Source of the DNA: a virus
Reading direction: 5' to 3' (one strand)
Length of the DNA stretch: 31,744 nucleotides
Virus record (IMG/VR): IMGVR_UViG_3300037349_000203
Span: 1-31,744 of that record
In this document: piece by piece, positions 4,783-8,925 of the stretch
Numbering within the stretch: the first letter of the stretch is position 1
Layout: each line of letters begins with the position of its first letter
Notes under the pieces: generated by a model
What the model saw: only the letters and a program-made list of their open reading frames with translations
Database searches by the model: none
Told to the model about the DNA's origin: nothing
Position numbers and translations under genes: made by a program

Positions 4783-5072
4783 GCGGCCTTCTCCCGTCCG
4801 CACGCCGAGCAGATGAACCCGGCCGGGGGTTTCCCGTCACATTGGATGCATTCCGGTTCGGCGCATGCGTCAGCCAGGGACAGCCCGAGCGCGGCGGTGA
4901 CTGTGAGGGCACTGCTCAGTGCCGTATCGCGGCCTTTCTCGATGCGTATGACGGTGGATGTGGCGACGTTGCTTTTGCCGCTTAGTTCCCGGAGGCTCCA
5001 GCCGCGGCGTTCCCGTTCCCGTTTGATCCGCTGGCCGAACGCGGCCGGGACGCTATTTGATCGCAATGTCAT
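4779..5072 (-). CDS. XRE-family HTH protein with C-terminal cysteine motif
   Basis: A 97-residue protein. Residues about 10-70 form a Cro/C1-type helix-turn-helix (FGQRIKRERERRGWSLREL, then VATSTVIRIEKGRDT and ALTVTAALGLSLADA). The tail has ECIQCDG and FICSACG, a possible four-cysteine zinc site. It probably binds DNA. The start at 5072 overlaps the methyltransferase stop as ATGA. Its place after a methyltransferase recalls control proteins of restriction-modification systems, but no restriction enzyme is visible nearby, so that is speculation. Confidence 0.75.
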   Translation of the reverse strand: MTLRSNSVPAAFGQRIKRERERRGWSLRELSGKSNVATSTVIRIEKGRDTALSSALTVTAALGLSLADACAEPECIQCDGKPPAGFICSACGREKAA

Positions 5073-5241
5073 GCGGCCTCCTGTGCTTCTGTGCGGGCCA
5101 GCAGGAGATGCAGGGCCATCGCCGCCTGGGCCGGGACGACTCCATTCCCCAATGCCTTCAGCTGGGCGTTGCGGGACAGGCCGGGGACACCGGTCACCCA
5201 GCCTTCGGGTAGACCCATGAGCCACTCCACGAAAGCCGGAC

Positions 5242-6486
5242 TCAGGCGCTGTCCTGTTCGTCCAGGCTCAGTTGGCGGTGGGGCTGACCTTCCGAGGACG
5301 GCTTCCCAACGGCGGATGGCGGGGGCGTAGTTCCCCCACTCCAGAACACGTCCGAAAGTGTCGTCCCCGAGTGATGACCCGTTGAGCCGGGCGTCCGTCC
5401 TGCTGTCGCGTTCCTCGTGTTCCGTGAGTCCGCGACCGTCGGTGTCGGCAGGAGCCATGGTGCCTTGGTCTCCACTGCCGCTATGCAGTCGTCGAGGTTG
5501 CTCCGGCGCCCGTTCAGCGACTGCGGTCCCTTGTAGCGGGCCGGGTCCGCGCCGCGGCTCGTGCCGTCCCCCAGCCGCGCTGTCGGTGTCGGCAGGAGTG
5601 CCGCCACGGACGCTAGGTCCGGGCTCGCCCCGCCGTTCCTGCCCATCGCCCGCCCCGGCCGGTGCCGTTCCGCCGCCTCCTCGGGCGTCCGATCCTGCGT
5701 ACTGGCCGTCGGGGTCGGCAGGAGCATCTCCACCACCTCGTTCAGTGGCCGGGCGTTCCGGTCCATGATGTTCGACTGCCCGGACCACCAGTCCCTCGCT
5801 GCAGGTGTCGGCAGGAGATCCATCACCGCTGACGGCAGCATCAGATCCCCGGATGAGCCGCGCTGGTTCGGGCCGCCCTTCGTCCCGTCCGTCGCCCGTG
5901 GTGTCGGCAGGAGTTGGTGTTCCACCTGGTCGGCCAGTGTCGGCCCGTGGCCGCCCGCCTTCCGTTTCTCCGGGTCCTGTGAACCACCGTTGGTCGCCAG
6001 TTGCGCGGTCGGGGTCTTCAGCAGATGCGTGACTGCTGTGGCCACCGTCACCGACCGCTTGCTCCCCGAGGGTCGCCGGCCCCCCAGGTCCGCTGATACC
6101 CGGCCGCCCGTCGCGTCGCTCGCCTCCGGGGTCGGCAGCAACTGCTGGGCTGCTATCGCCAGCGGTGTCCCTTGCCCGTTCCCGTTGATCCCCTTCGCCA
6201 GGTTCGCCTGCCTGCGCGCTTCCCAGGACTCGAGCGTTTCTCCGTCGTTGAAGTTCCCCGCCGCGGGTGTTGGTAGCAAGGATGAAGACCCGCTCCCGGC
6301 GGTGGGGTGCGCCCGCGTCGGCTGCGGGTACGCAACACCATTGCGTGTCATACCCGAGACCGGCCAGGTCCCCGAGAACGGTTCCGATTGCCCGAACAAG
6401 TCGCCGTTCATGCCATTGGCATCGAGCCACGATCCGCTTCCGGTATCCCATGAGGCGATGGGCCCGGGCCTGTATTGCGATGACAC
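5242..6486 (-). CDS. LLPTP-repeat protein overlapping the methyltransferase in another frame
   Basis: A 414-residue frame lying wholly inside the methyltransferase gene on the same strand. It has SEPFSGTWPVSGMTRNGVAY near residue 35, then about eight LLPTP (or LLKTP) segments spaced 30-50 residues apart, often followed by A-x-D. From memory, such TWP-SGMTRNG and LPTP proteins recur with phage methyltransferases, so this looks like genuine dual coding. GTG start at 6486. In the other frame the same DNA encodes the methyltransferase around motif VIII and its variable linker. Function unknown; each repeat comes from a CTCCTGCCGACACC-like unit. Confidence 0.6.
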   Translation of the reverse strand: MSSQYRPGPIASWDTGSGSWLDANGMNGDLFGQSEPFSGTWPVSGMTRNGVAYPQPTRAHPTAGSGSSSLLPTPAAGNFNDGETLESWEARRQANLAKGINGNGQGTPLAIAAQQLLPTPEASDATGGRVSADLGGRRPSGSKRSVTVATAVTHLLKTPTAQLATNGGSQDPEKRKAGGHGPTLADQVEHQLLPTPRATDGTKGGPNQRGSSGDLMLPSAVMDLLPTPAARDWWSGQSNIMDRNARPLNEVVEMLLPTPTASTQDRTPEEAAERHRPGRAMGRNGGASPDLASVAALLPTPTARLGDGTSRGADPARYKGPQSLNGRRSNLDDCIAAVETKAPWLLPTPTVADSRNTRNATAGRTPGSTGHHSGTTLSDVFWSGGTTPPPSAVGKPSSEGQPHRQLSLDEQDSA

Positions 6487-6928
6487 GGCGGGTGTCTCCT
6501 TTCGCTATCGCGACGGTCAGGGTGCGTGATTGCCACTCCAGCAGCCGGAAGGCAATGTCGCGGGCGGCCTCGTCGGCGAGGTGTTCCGGTGTCGGCTCGT
6601 CACCGCGGGCGGTCAGGAGCCCGCGGACGTTCTCGATCACGACAAGGCGGGGCCGCAGTGCGCCGATGGCGCGGGCACAGTGGGCCCAGACGCCGCTGCG
6701 GGTGCCCGCATGGAGCCCGGCGCGCGCCCCGGCCGCCGACACATCCTGGCAAGGGAAGCCCCCCGTGAGGATGTCCACGGGGTCCACGGCAGCCCAGTCG
6801 ACCGCCGTGATATCACCCAGGTTGGGTACGTCCGGGTAGTGGTGGGTGAGGATCAGCGCCGCACCCGGGTCGTTGTCCGCGACCCAGGCGAGCTCGCCAC
6901 CGAGCACCGATTGCACGGCCATTCCTAG

Positions 6929-6938
6929 GCCCTCGTAA
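6929..6938 (-). repeat. 10-bp direct repeat, left copy
   Basis: TTACGAGGGC on the minus strand. Identical to the copy at 7804-7813, and the match stops at both ends. Here it follows the recoded GGC-TAC and precedes CTAGGAATGG of the methyltransferase body. Because the repeat begins with TTAC, it adds four bases after a TAC codon and offsets the frame. Confidence 0.85.
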
Positions 6939-6969
6939 GTAGCCTGAGCAAAGGGAACCAATGCGAAGC

Positions 6970-7551
6970 TCAGACATCTCCACCACCCCCAATCCGCTGC
7001 ATCGTCCCGCGCCCAAGCTGGGCACGGCGACGTGCGTCAAGGCGGCGATGGCAGCGAGGGCACAGCCGCGCGTAGTCGTTGATGTCCTCGTAGTGGCCCG
7101 TCAGGTTGGCCCAGTGGTACTGAATGCGAGGGTCGGTGGTGTCGCAGCACGCGCAGTGCTGCGGTCGCCCGCGAGCCGTAATCACGCGAAGGTGCATCGC
7201 GCTATATCCGGCGTCGTCCCCTAGCCAGCAGTCGTTGTTCGCGCCGCGCTGCTCACGCTTGCCAAGGCCGCGCCGCTCGATACCGTGGCGCGGCATGAGT
7301 CGCTGAAGCACTTTGATGGTGGTGCCGCAGGCTTCCGCTACTTCGCGCATCGTGTGCCCGGCTTCGTAGAGCACGCGCACACGGTCGACTAGTTCCGGTG
7401 GATCTTCAACCTGCGGTGCTCCAGGTGATGGCGTCCTGCGCTCGCGGAGGTAAGCGCGACAGGAGTAGCTGCAGGTCTGAGCGGTGAGCGAGCGCGTCTT
7501 AAATGGCGTCTCGCAGATCACGCATTCGGCTTCCCGGACGGGGCTAGGCAT
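6970..7551 (-). CDS. HNH endonuclease, probable homing-type
   Basis: A 193-residue protein. Residues 8-35 have ECVICETPF ... CSYSCRAYLRER, a four-cysteine zinc-finger-like start. A middle helix-turn-helix-like part (VRVLYEAGHTMREVAEACG ... VLQRLMPRHGI) probably reads DNA. The C-terminal half is an HNH nuclease (HCACCDTTDPRIQYHWANL, NDYARLCPRCHRRLDARR). DNA-reading modules joined to an HNH core are typical of phage homing enzymes. Start at 7551; a TTGACT-18-AAGACT promoter ends 6 nt before the ATG. Its TGA overlaps the recoded methyltransferase start by 8 nt. Confidence 0.85.
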   Translation of the reverse strand: MPSPVREAECVICETPFKTRSLTAQTCSYSCRAYLRERRTPSPGAPQVEDPPELVDRVRVLYEAGHTMREVAEACGTTIKVLQRLMPRHGIERRGLGKREQRGANNDCWLGDDAGYSAMHLRVITARGRPQHCACCDTTDPRIQYHWANLTGHYEDINDYARLCPRCHRRLDARRRAQLGRGTMQRIGGGGDV

Positions 7552-7609
7552 GTGACTAGTCTTCCAGCAGGCTTGCCGCCTAGTCAAGCGACAAGTAGCG
7601 TTGTGACTA
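7551..7609. promoter_or_regulatory. Divergent promoters and TGTGACTA operators of the cassette
   Basis: TGTGACTA occurs twice, at 7551-7558 and 7602-7609, each touching one of the two start codons. An inverted core TAGTCA lies between them (7581-7586), and GACTAGTC at 7554-7561 is a perfect palindrome. Rightward promoter: TTGCCG (7573-7578), 17 bp, TAGCGT (7596-7601), ATG 7 nt later. Leftward promoter: TTGACT (7582-7587), 18 bp, AAGACT (7558-7563). Both transcripts would be leaderless. The layout suggests autoregulation by the HTH protein. Confidence 0.6.
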
Positions 7610-7800
7610 TGGTTGCCGTCATGCATCACCTGATGGGCGCGGCCGAGATTGCAGCACGCTTGGGTGTCAGCCGCCAGCGGGTGCAGCAACTCGTGTCGCG
7701 AAGGGACTTTCCGAAGCCGGACGCCGTGCTCGGCATGGGCAAGGTCTGGCGCACCGAGGACGTTGAGCGATGGATTCAGGAGCATCGCCCCGGCACTTGA
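7609..7800 (+). CDS. AlpA/excisionase-like HTH regulator of the cassette
   Basis: A 63-residue protein with one MerR/AlpA-type helix-turn-helix (MGAAEIAARLGVSRQRVQQL) and a wing-like FPKPDAVLGMGKVWRTEDVERWI typical of small phage regulators and excisionases. The ATG at 7609 sits 7 nt after a good -10 box, fitting a leaderless transcript; ATG 7621 is the alternative. It points away from the HNH gene and shares its control region, so it may limit nuclease expression. It ends four bases before the right 10-bp repeat copy, and so lies wholly inside the insertion. Confidence 0.8.
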   Translation: MVAVMHHLMGAAEIAARLGVSRQRVQQLVSRRDFPKPDAVLGMGKVWRTEDVERWIQEHRPGT

Positions 7801-7803
7801 CTC

Positions 7804-7845
7804 GCCCTCGTAACCAGAGCACAGCGAGCCGATGCGCCTCTTCAC
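7804..7845 (-). pseudogene. Severed original 5' end of the methyltransferase
   Basis: The original start is GTG at 7845, overlapping the stop of the RusA gene as GTGA, the same coupling used elsewhere in this operon. Fourteen codons give MKRRIGSLCSGYEG, the start of motif I, and end at the right copy of the 10-bp repeat. Beyond that the frame runs into insert DNA and encodes nothing recognisable before it joins the HNH frame. Codons match the operon's style (ATC, GGC, TCG, CTG), unlike the recoded copy at 6939-6977. Confidence 0.8.
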
Positions 7846-8291
7846 GCAACACCTGCCGTGGTCTCATCGGTGACCTCGGTGACGCGAAGCACCAGCTGCC
7901 CGCGCGGAACCGGTTCGCCTATTTCGCAGCTGACACGGGCGACGTACCGCTTGTCGTCACCTTTAAGCACACCCGCCGCGACTATCCCATCGATTGCGTA
8001 CTTGACCCCTGCGGAAATATTGTCCGCGTCGCGGTACCGCCGGTCCGGTGGCCGGTACTCCGCGGTGATGGTCACTCGTTCGAGGTGCGGCACTTTCGCT
8101 TTGCGGGTCATGATGATCGCGGCGTCCCTGATGACCTGCCCGTGGCGGTTGCGTGCCGCCCAGTGGGCGCGGTCGTTCAGGGAGAGGATCTGTATCCCGG
8201 CGGGGAGTTTGATCGTGAACGTGCGGGTTCTTCCACTGGCAGGACGCGCTTCCCGCACGCCTGCCGCCGGGCTGCCCGCCGTGCCGGTCAC
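7842..8291 (-). CDS. rusA: RusA-family Holliday junction resolvase
   Basis: A 149-residue protein. The RusA signature is clear: RRYRDADNISAGVKYAIDGIVAAGVLKGDD, with aspartates that bind the catalytic metal, after an N-terminal LSLNDRAHWAARNR segment typical of the family. RusA-type enzymes cut Holliday junctions formed during phage recombination. The first 20 residues are alanine/proline-rich. GTG start at 8291 overlaps the upstream stop as GTGA. It sits with exonuclease and Cas4-like genes, consistent with a phage recombination module. Confidence 0.9.
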   Translation of the reverse strand: MTGTAGSPAAGVREARPASGRTRTFTIKLPAGIQILSLNDRAHWAARNRHGQVIRDAAIIMTRKAKVPHLERVTITAEYRPPDRRYRDADNISAGVKYAIDGIVAAGVLKGDDKRYVARVSCEIGEPVPRGQLVLRVTEVTDETTAGVA

Positions 8292-8452
8292 GACGCCTGC
8301 CTCGCCAGCTTGCAGGTCGCCTCAATCTCAGCGTCCAGCCATTCCATCGCCGTCTGCGGGCGTGGAGCGGACACGGCTGAACTGGAGGAAACAGTGGGGG
8401 TCAGTATGTAGCTGTACGCACTGCTGCTGGAGGTGATGTAAGGCACGGTCAT
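8288..8452 (-). CDS. Small hypothetical protein
   Basis: A 54-residue protein between the coiled-coil gene and rusA. The ATG at 8452 overlaps the upstream stop as TGATG and its own stop overlaps the rusA GTG as GTGA, which is the main evidence that it is real. The N-terminal half is serine-rich (ITSSSSAYSYILTPTVSSSS); the C-terminal half is a short helix (AMEWLDAEIEATCKLARQAS). No family recognised. Confidence 0.65.
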   Translation of the reverse strand: MTVPYITSSSSAYSYILTPTVSSSSAVSAPRPQTAMEWLDAEIEATCKLARQAS

Positions 8453-8925
8453 CAGGCCGCATCCTTCCTGGATGCCGGCCGGGGTGTCGCACCGCCGGTC
8501 AGTGCAACGTCGATCACGGGAAGGCGCTCCAGGATGGCCTTGAGGATCTCGTCCTGCCTATCCGCGCGCTGGTCGAAGTGGTCACGCTGGAACTTCATCT
8601 CGGCCTCGAAGCGTCCCCGGTCGGCCACCAGGTTCTCCTCGCGGACCTCCAGGACGGCCATGCGCCGGGCGTGCTCCACGTCGTGTTCCTGCTTGGTCTT
8701 GAGCAAGCCGGTCTTGTGCTCGGTTTCCCGGATCTTCCGGTTGCTGTCCTCGGTCAGCCGGGCTTTCTCCAGCTCAAGCTTCTCCACGTCTCCGCGGAGT
8801 TTCTTGACGCGGCCGGTCTCGTCCCGTTCGGTGCGGAGCGCCTCGATCACAACGCGCAGCTCCGCTATCTCTGCGGCGAGCTTGTCCCGCTCAGCGTCGT
8901 GCGGCTGGGTGCAGATGACTTTCAC
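8452..8925 (-). CDS. Coiled-coil protein
   Basis: A 157-residue, highly charged protein that is almost wholly heptad-patterned from about residue 10 to 125 (DKLAAEIAELRVVIEALRTE, VKKLRGDVEKLELEKARLTE), followed by a hydrophobic LKAILERLPVIDVALTGG tail. A long parallel coiled coil is the only structural call. GTG start at 8925 overlaps the upstream TAG by one base and has AAGGA in front. It could be a scaffold or partner of the recombination proteins, but no function can be assigned. Confidence 0.7.
   Translation of the reverse strand: MKVICTQPHDAERDKLAAEIAELRVVIEALRTERDETGRVKKLRGDVEKLELEKARLTEDSNRKIRETEHKTGLLKTKQEHDVEHARRMAVLEVREENLVADRGRFEAEMKFQRDHFDQRADRQDEILKAILERLPVIDVALTGGATPRPASRKDAA

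Follow-up and report, generated by a model that had tools for sequence, protein, structure and literature searches.

A candidate phage homing element that joins an HNH gene to a respelled start of the gene it interrupts

Synthetic homing or Cleave-and-Rescue drives link a nuclease to a cleavage-resistant, recoded copy of its target. The closest published work on natural phage sequences, judged from the available text, is that on the ShiLan insertion, in which an HNH gene lies out of frame within a phage methylase gene; the start of the insertion resembles the far side of its site, and every described copy but two ends in TAAC (PMC11855218, PMC9957025). HNH genes upstream of methylases in Tiff81 and Sashimi are also mentioned in the accessible part of that work (PMC11855218). 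The nearest analogue in logic, as far as the consulted portion of the source goes, is provided by fungal mitochondrial mobile ORFs of the Allomyces atp6 type, which replace the C-termini of genes (PMC3630166), and the locus analysed here would be a phage counterpart. It lies in an IMG/VR virus record with phage-type genes, which we took in its entire length of 31,744 bases (the window) and which may be a fragment of a larger genome. We favour, with a probability of roughly 0.74, the reading that the locus is a homing element whose target is a conserved motif close to the beginning of a phage gene and which supplies a replacement, cleavage-proof gene start.

The interrupted methyltransferase gene and its second start

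The frame of a methyltransferase gene on the minus strand of the window is broken after a short 5' stub (7845-7804), and its body picks up 865-875 nt further on. Counted from the stub, the insert consists of an HTH_17 gene (plus strand), a 57-nt divergent region, an HNH gene (minus strand) and a second methyltransferase start. The features are as follows (L-numbers denote other loci or contigs).

5069-6934, minus: body of the C5-cytosine methyltransferase gene, open, with PCQ and ENV motifs
6855-6934, minus: presumed co-converted flank, strongly differing from the empty homologue L113 by mismatch counts
6929-6938, minus: right copy of a 10-bp repeat, from sequence comparison
6935-6938, minus: 4-nt insertion TTAC exactly at SGY^EG, also present in L013 and L015
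6939-6977, minus: replacement (respelled) methyltransferase 5' end, MSELRIGSLCSGY, with an ATG that overlaps the HNH stop (ATGTCTGA)
6970-7551, minus: HNH endonuclease gene, 193 aa, with homologues in Gordonia phages Gudmit and Lton
7552-7608, no strand: 57-nt divergent region with three TAGTCA motifs in it and at its edge
7553-7558 minus, 7581-7586 plus and 7604-7609 minus: the TAGTCA motifs, all three kept in L006 and L007
7609-7800, plus: HTH_17/AlpA-like regulator, 63 aa from the ATG at 7609, by Pfam, with relatives in L006 and L007
7804-7813, minus: left copy of the 10-bp repeat, codons of SGYEG, from sequence comparison
7804-7845, minus: displaced methyltransferase 5' stub, VKRRIGSLCSGYEG; such stubs occur in 24 of 42 HNH-methyltransferase loci
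7842-8291, minus: RusA-like resolvase, the upstream gene (phrog_34, 9.7e-24)

A preliminary description of this DNA had reported an HNH-HTH cassette flanked by a 10-bp target duplication, and its observations on the letters themselves were reproduced. The repeat (TTACGAGGGC, minus strand, 7813-7804 and 6938-6929) is perfect, and joining 7845-7804 to 6928 and onward gives a single open frame of 633 aa that begins VKRRIGSLCSGYEGLGMAV. The GTG at 7845 and the rusA stop overlap as GTGA, the leftward gene (7551-6970, minus) matches PHROG 8446 'HNH endonuclease' (3e-18), the divergent gene that ends at 7800 (plus) matches HTH_17 (Pfam, 1.2e-7), and neither insert protein matches a transposase family in Pfam or PHROG. 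The interpretation of the repeat as a target-site duplication was not supported, because the repeat consists of YEG codons within two diverged copies of the gene start. It is also not beyond chance, as a second perfect 10-bp repeat and longer imperfect repeats lie within the same 1.4 kb.

The second of these gene-start copies had been overlooked. It lies at 6977-6939, inside what was taken as the insert, reads ATGTCTGAGCTTCGCATTGGTTCCCTTTGCTCAGGCTAC and differs from the stub in its synonymous spelling, so that the nuclease insert carries a divergent second copy of the gene end. Next come TTAC (6938-6935) and GAG GGC of the body, and with these 4 extra nt the replacement start and the native remainder are in different frames. 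The duplicate start is in frame with the remainder in seamless relatives such as L065, L070 and L049. The body in the window is open to 5069 and has PCQ, ENV and GN motifs. Upstream of the junction, the sole common start codon in the body frame is the TTG at 6961, and a start there would yield a non-canonical motif I.

Two further open frames were seen in the window. The stub frame stays open antisense through the HTH gene and into the HNH frame (291 aa, 7845-6970, minus), as it likewise does in L013 and L022, and translation from the start of the target gene may give the HNH protein as a fusion. The variable part of the methyltransferase body is overlain, in a different reading frame, by an open frame of 414 aa (5242-6486, minus) in which LLPTP motifs recur; a stretch resembling it, GTKGGPNQRGSSGDLMLPSAV, is in frame within the Lton methylase, and a nested or frame-switched gene is possible.

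The HNH assignment comes from phrog_8446, which was matched by 22/22 members of the HNH set A3. A Pfam search of the HNH proteins gave no HNH domain match, and a PDB sequence search matched only the HTH-like part. The fold model (pLDDT 88.6, pTM 0.48) had no Foldseek match at E<=0.001, VIA-align matched mainly residues 48-95 (the HTH region), and with the fold searches matching mainly this central HTH, an HNH fold of the model is neither shown nor excluded by them. The nearest HNH genes in named phages are those of Gudmit and Lton, the only two records at 1e-5, which directly precede and overlap a methyltransferase gene. One further homologue search returned Gudmit and Lton only, and another returned these two together with a weaker match or matches in Mycobacterium phages and one other match.

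The regulator gene has relatives of 84% identity in L006 and 79% in L007. Its open frame runs from the GTG at 7552 to a stop separated from the stub by 3 nt. Across the whole window TAGTCA shows no over-representation (5 found, 3.3 expected), but 3/5 copies fall within or at the edge of the 57-base divergent region. The three TAGTCA/TGACTA motifs have one and the same spacing in the window, in L013 (on the L007 contig) and in L022 (on the L006 contig), the three loci of the survey described below that have this HTH gene (3/68). Similar arrays, read by eye, precede relatives of the HTH gene in L008, L009 and L010, loci that gave no match to this HNH. The arrays and the HTH are probably a phage regulatory module common to several systems, and a phage regulator seems to have been acquired by the element along with its operators. 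The divergent region would serve as promoter and operator, and the HTH protein may regulate its own gene. In the window family the HTH gene, which faces that of the nuclease and has conserved motifs, probably controls it.

Recurrence of the HNH gene and the replacement start

Scans with an HNH alignment yielded 18 loci plus two from genomes, and then the best 80 of 137 relatives were taken. After contig repeats and identical ends were counted once, 68 distinct loci remained (67 and the window). Motif patterns placed a C5-methyltransferase start after the HNH gene in 42/68 loci of this best-80-derived set and a YqaJ-exonuclease start in 6/68 (three of the six being near-copies), with no recognised target motif downstream in 20/68. 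A single HNH family precedes several methyltransferase types as well as YqaJ. The methyltransferase motif lies within 40 nt of the HNH stop in 40/42 loci, and begins 107 and 88 nt past it in L101 and L109. A loosely Shine-Dalgarno-like core was found near the second start in 30/42.

The 24 stubs, which carry the same motif and stand before the HNH gene, were assigned by pattern and judgement. The 18 loci without a stub by pattern include some that end at a contig edge and some with stub-like letters that were not counted (L094), and an apparent stub in L080 was judged spurious. Peptide scores between stub and second start exceeded the maximum (62) of 300 random pairings in L089, L097, L044, L065 and L095, and several further loci were near the 99% level (57). 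The stub leads straight into TTGACA in L065, L073, L095 and L097, possibly a -35 box for the HNH gene. The full layout of stub, HTH, HNH and second start was found in two contigs, L006 and L007, with the stub in L006 belonging to another methyltransferase type than the gene that follows. These two contigs also show the same HNH-HTH pair in other methyltransferase genes, as the preliminary description had envisaged. Its view of a homing-type HNH element with a regulator beside it is supported; its definition of the element as a minimal pair of nuclease and regulator is not supported as it was put. The HNH gene with a replacement 5' end of the invaded gene is the recurrent core and the HTH gene is an extra. 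The window holds a 'junction-insertion' member of this recurrent class with an added HTH module.

Two neighbouring cases were also observed. L019 is seamless at motif I, but after 4438 its frame enters a second HNH-like stretch (KCSCEKCGSSG...), then returns to GGFP and stops, and CQDVSSAGKRAG continues in another frame. The pattern suggests another HNH insertion, this one at the PCQ motif and near the probable site of the ShiLan insertion. In L005 (Gordonia phage Ailee, 2832-3230) a related methyltransferase gene, annotated as joined from two pieces, is broken at a later site by a gene annotated as a LAGLIDADG endonuclease.

The 42 methyltransferase loci differ in their junctions at SG[X]^GG. 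Seventeen are seamless, and 19, the window included, have 4-6 extra nt exactly there. In a third kind of frame change, three have a single extra nt shortly after the GG codons (L025, L062, L067), and another three (L074, L089, L109), in which the frame changes further on, were left out of both the seamless and the inserted counts. Thirteen types of insertion were found: TTAC, TAAC, TGAAC, TAGGTC, TTACTC, AGTA, TGACT, TAGTC, TAGTT, CAAACC, TGACC, TGTT and TAACT. On an HNH tree of 46 rows, the distribution of the inserted state takes 8 changes, and starred branches force at least 4 of these. One starred clade unites Gudmit, Lton, L016 and L032, which all have TGAAC, and its insertion seems to be shared by descent; another starred set, of five, holds the window together with L013, L014, L015 and L017, the last of which is seamless, and the YqaJ elements form one clade.

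As controls, 80 methyltransferase loci were picked by their body only, all of the window's type to the exclusion of others. The motif was in frame in 80/80 by a broad pattern, and there was no convincing HNH neighbour (L177 and L220 had one weak HNH-like match each, at 26-28% identity). This set replaced an earlier one that had been picked across the motif and was therefore biased, in which 75/80 were intact by pattern and the other 5 were read as intact; the two sets share contigs and are both of the window's methyltransferase type. Changes of 4-6 nt or +1 at the motif thus occur in 22/42 HNH loci versus 0/80 controls (P=5e-13, a generous value that treats loci as independent), which ties the extra nucleotides to the HNH gene.

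Spelling follows the same division. Fifteen stub-bearing loci have no 4-6-nt insertion (11 seamless, the three with +1, and L089 with its later change); there, stub and second start share 1/39 codons at S, G and X, versus 25% when starts were swapped among loci (P=0.0006, 5000 shuffles). The nine stub-bearing inserted loci share 6/24 codons versus 27% by chance (P=0.40) and are not respelled. Respelling without insertion, and insertion without respelling, is what self-protection predicts.

Empty alleles, the proposed mechanism and its rivals

An empty-site homologue, which the preliminary description had anticipated, was found in L113, where the methyltransferase gene is uninterrupted (MNGPRIASLCSGYGGLDRAV...). 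It is identical to the window over 1725 nt (100%) and 96.4% identical over 1153 nt. Counted from the insertion point, mismatches per 60 columns are 19, 6, 0, 0, 1 and 0, so that differences cease about 90 nt from the site, save for patches further down. On the other side, the 364 upstream nt of L113 gave no match to the window, and the upstream DNA of the window matched none of the loci collected by that stage except itself. A one-sided step to identity together with unrelated upstream DNA is as expected of homing in which a short tract was co-converted on one flank while the other flank underwent an unrelated exchange.

The YqaJ gene of Pseudomonas phage vB_PaeS-D14P is also empty and reads ...DRTKYLGG and then SDVAGILG on the two sides of the site. 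Compared with it, the occupied locus L049 has a clean net insert of 472 bp after the GGC GGC of YqaJ, with flanks of 98.5% identity over about 2 kb on the right and 91.8% over about 0.8 kb on the left. At its end the L049 insert brings a respelled DRSKLLGG, which puts YqaJ back in frame. The L049 stub continues in frame into the HNH gene, a direct fusion also seen in the YqaJ element L100. The phage vB_Pae_BR153a looks empty too, as both matching pieces are contiguous; E. coli genomes gave no match to L100.

In the homing reading, the predicted cut by the HNH nuclease falls within the codons for the SAM-binding motif (SG[Y/I/V]^GG) of methyltransferase genes that lack the element. Repair off an invaded phage would bring in the nuclease gene, a new start codon and respelled codons upstream of the cut, and the old 5' end would remain as a dead stub. 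The element's own junction would be shielded from the nuclease by synonymous respelling, which keeps the gene in frame, or alternatively by a 4-6-nt insertion at the cut codons, the state of the window. The sequences themselves show the architecture, the empty sites, the step in identity at the site, the respelling and the tie of the insertions to the HNH gene; cutting, homing, immunity, regulation and the choice of active gene products are predicted from them. Since the predicted cut site spans a few codons, the reading is directly testable.

A decidedly unlikely alternative is a free-standing HNH homing gene beside its target, with the second start as an unselected by-product of recombination between diverged methyltransferase genes. 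The available text of one report places phage homing nuclease genes at recombination boundaries (PMC10448857), and the unrelated upstream DNA of the window and L113 and the many out-of-frame junctions would fit such an origin. A by-product is harder to reconcile with shared codons that are nearly absent only in loci without a 4-6-nt insertion, with the clean insertion into a conserved gene whose frame is restored in L049, and with replacement starts that are conserved as protein (see below).

An unrecognised self-splicing intron, in which RNA joins stub and body and the second start belongs to the intron, would account for the open frame left by removal of the insert and for insert ends that resemble the exons beside them, a feature described for the ShiLan insertion in the accessible text of PMC11855218. 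We consider it highly improbable and rejected it, as Rfam gave 0 matches in window positions 6000-8600 (E<=1) and in 16 related loci (gathering score), both searches covering described families only. In addition, the second start alone reads into the body in seamless loci, the Shine-Dalgarno-like cores lie near second starts, and stub and body differ in methyltransferase type in L006.

Even less credible is a restriction-modification-like operon of HTH controller, HNH nuclease and methyltransferase. The HNH gene does adjoin the methyltransferase start in 42/68 loci, but the YqaJ targets led us to reject this reading, under which stubs, respelling and empty alleles are also unexpected; the HTH gene, moreover, is present in only 3/68 loci. 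Least probable is a transposon-like insertion with a 10-bp target duplication, rejected despite the perfect repeat of the window because that repeat is at chance level and variable (9 bp in L007, imperfect in L006), the insert genes match HNH and HTH families rather than a transposase, and the right insert end holds a copy of the gene start.

Frame-broken loci and comparison with known systems

Returning to the homing reading, rescue of the invaded gene is not visible in most inserted loci because the replacement start is out of frame with the body: of the 19, 16 shift frame, L020 has an in-frame stop, and only L022 and L069 are open. Each of the 19 bodies is an open frame, 186-705 codons long, with PCQ-like and ENV motifs (that of L014 ends after 186 codons without motif X, and L022 and L024 lack motif X by pattern), and most inserted loci are not visibly decaying. 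The replacement starts are conserved as protein in three comparisons, with 5 nt and 0 aa changes between the window and L013 (P=0.0009), 14 nt and 3 aa changes between L004 and L016 (P=0.0001), and 14 nt and 3 aa changes between L024 and L087 (P=0.0001). L003 versus L032 was not significant (P=0.39), and comparisons in other reading frames showed no conservation. Part of this constraint could predate the insertions, but in the TGAAC clade the insertion seems to be inherited from a common ancestor.

Conserved start peptides ahead of frame-breaking insertions raise a question of translation. More insertion types than expected, 8/13, make an immediate stop (8/11 given a first T, P=1.5e-4). A hop between repeated codons fits TAC-T-TAC and GTC-TAG-GTC and fails for TAT-TG-AAC and ATT-TG-ACT, and restarting translation at an overlapping TTG suits none but the TG types. 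Neither L013 nor L015 has an ATG, GTG or TTG in the body frame from the last stop up to the junction. Read from the junction tables, no one translational mechanism fits all 13 types. Either start and body are joined by recoding, or they are two working pieces, or some products are dead and the constraint comes from elsewhere. It is conceivable, though unlikely, that these are widespread natural recoded-rescue homing drives of phages whose frame-broken members make the enzyme by programmed recoding or as a split enzyme; this idea comes from start and body both being protein-constrained though the DNA between them is out of frame. In the annotation of Gudmit and Lton the methylase begins at a GTG or ATG in the body frame, and the homing reading could explain this annotation from a start in another frame.

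If the homing reading is true, introns and inteins are joined by a third natural means by which a homing nuclease can reside inside a conserved gene, namely by swapping the gene start for a cleavage-proof respelling, the logic of engineered recoded-rescue gene drives, and natural empty and occupied alleles of such an element are available. Among the literature matches listed, no phage element with a replacement, respelled gene start was found; with most subscription papers outside this coverage, that absence speaks weakly for novelty.

Free-standing phage homing endonucleases and collaborative homing, as presented in the available part of PMC10448857, resemble this locus in having a nuclease gene beside a presumed target at a recombination boundary; here the gene lies inside the target gene and carries the target's replacement start. 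The ShiLan insertion shares an HNH insertion at a conserved site of a phage DNA methylase, a homing-like distribution, a start that mimics the far side and the TAAC end, which is carried here by L014. It differs, as far as the accessible text of those reports extends, in having no reported replacement start, respelling, HTH, alternative junction insertions or YqaJ target, and in reading in frame through the methylase, whereas in the window the stub frame enters the HNH gene itself and stops at 6970. Fungal mobile ORFs of the Allomyces atp6 type, in the portion of the literature consulted, likewise place an endonuclease ORF in a gene with a diverged duplicate gene end that supplants the native one, but they belong to eukaryotic organelles, encode LAGLIDADG or GIY-YIG enzymes and replace the C-terminus; here phages, an HNH gene and the N-terminus are involved, and codons are respelled at the insertion point. 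The likeness to Cleave-and-Rescue drives lies in a nuclease linked to a recoded copy, which in the present case is natural and partial and would replace the native start.
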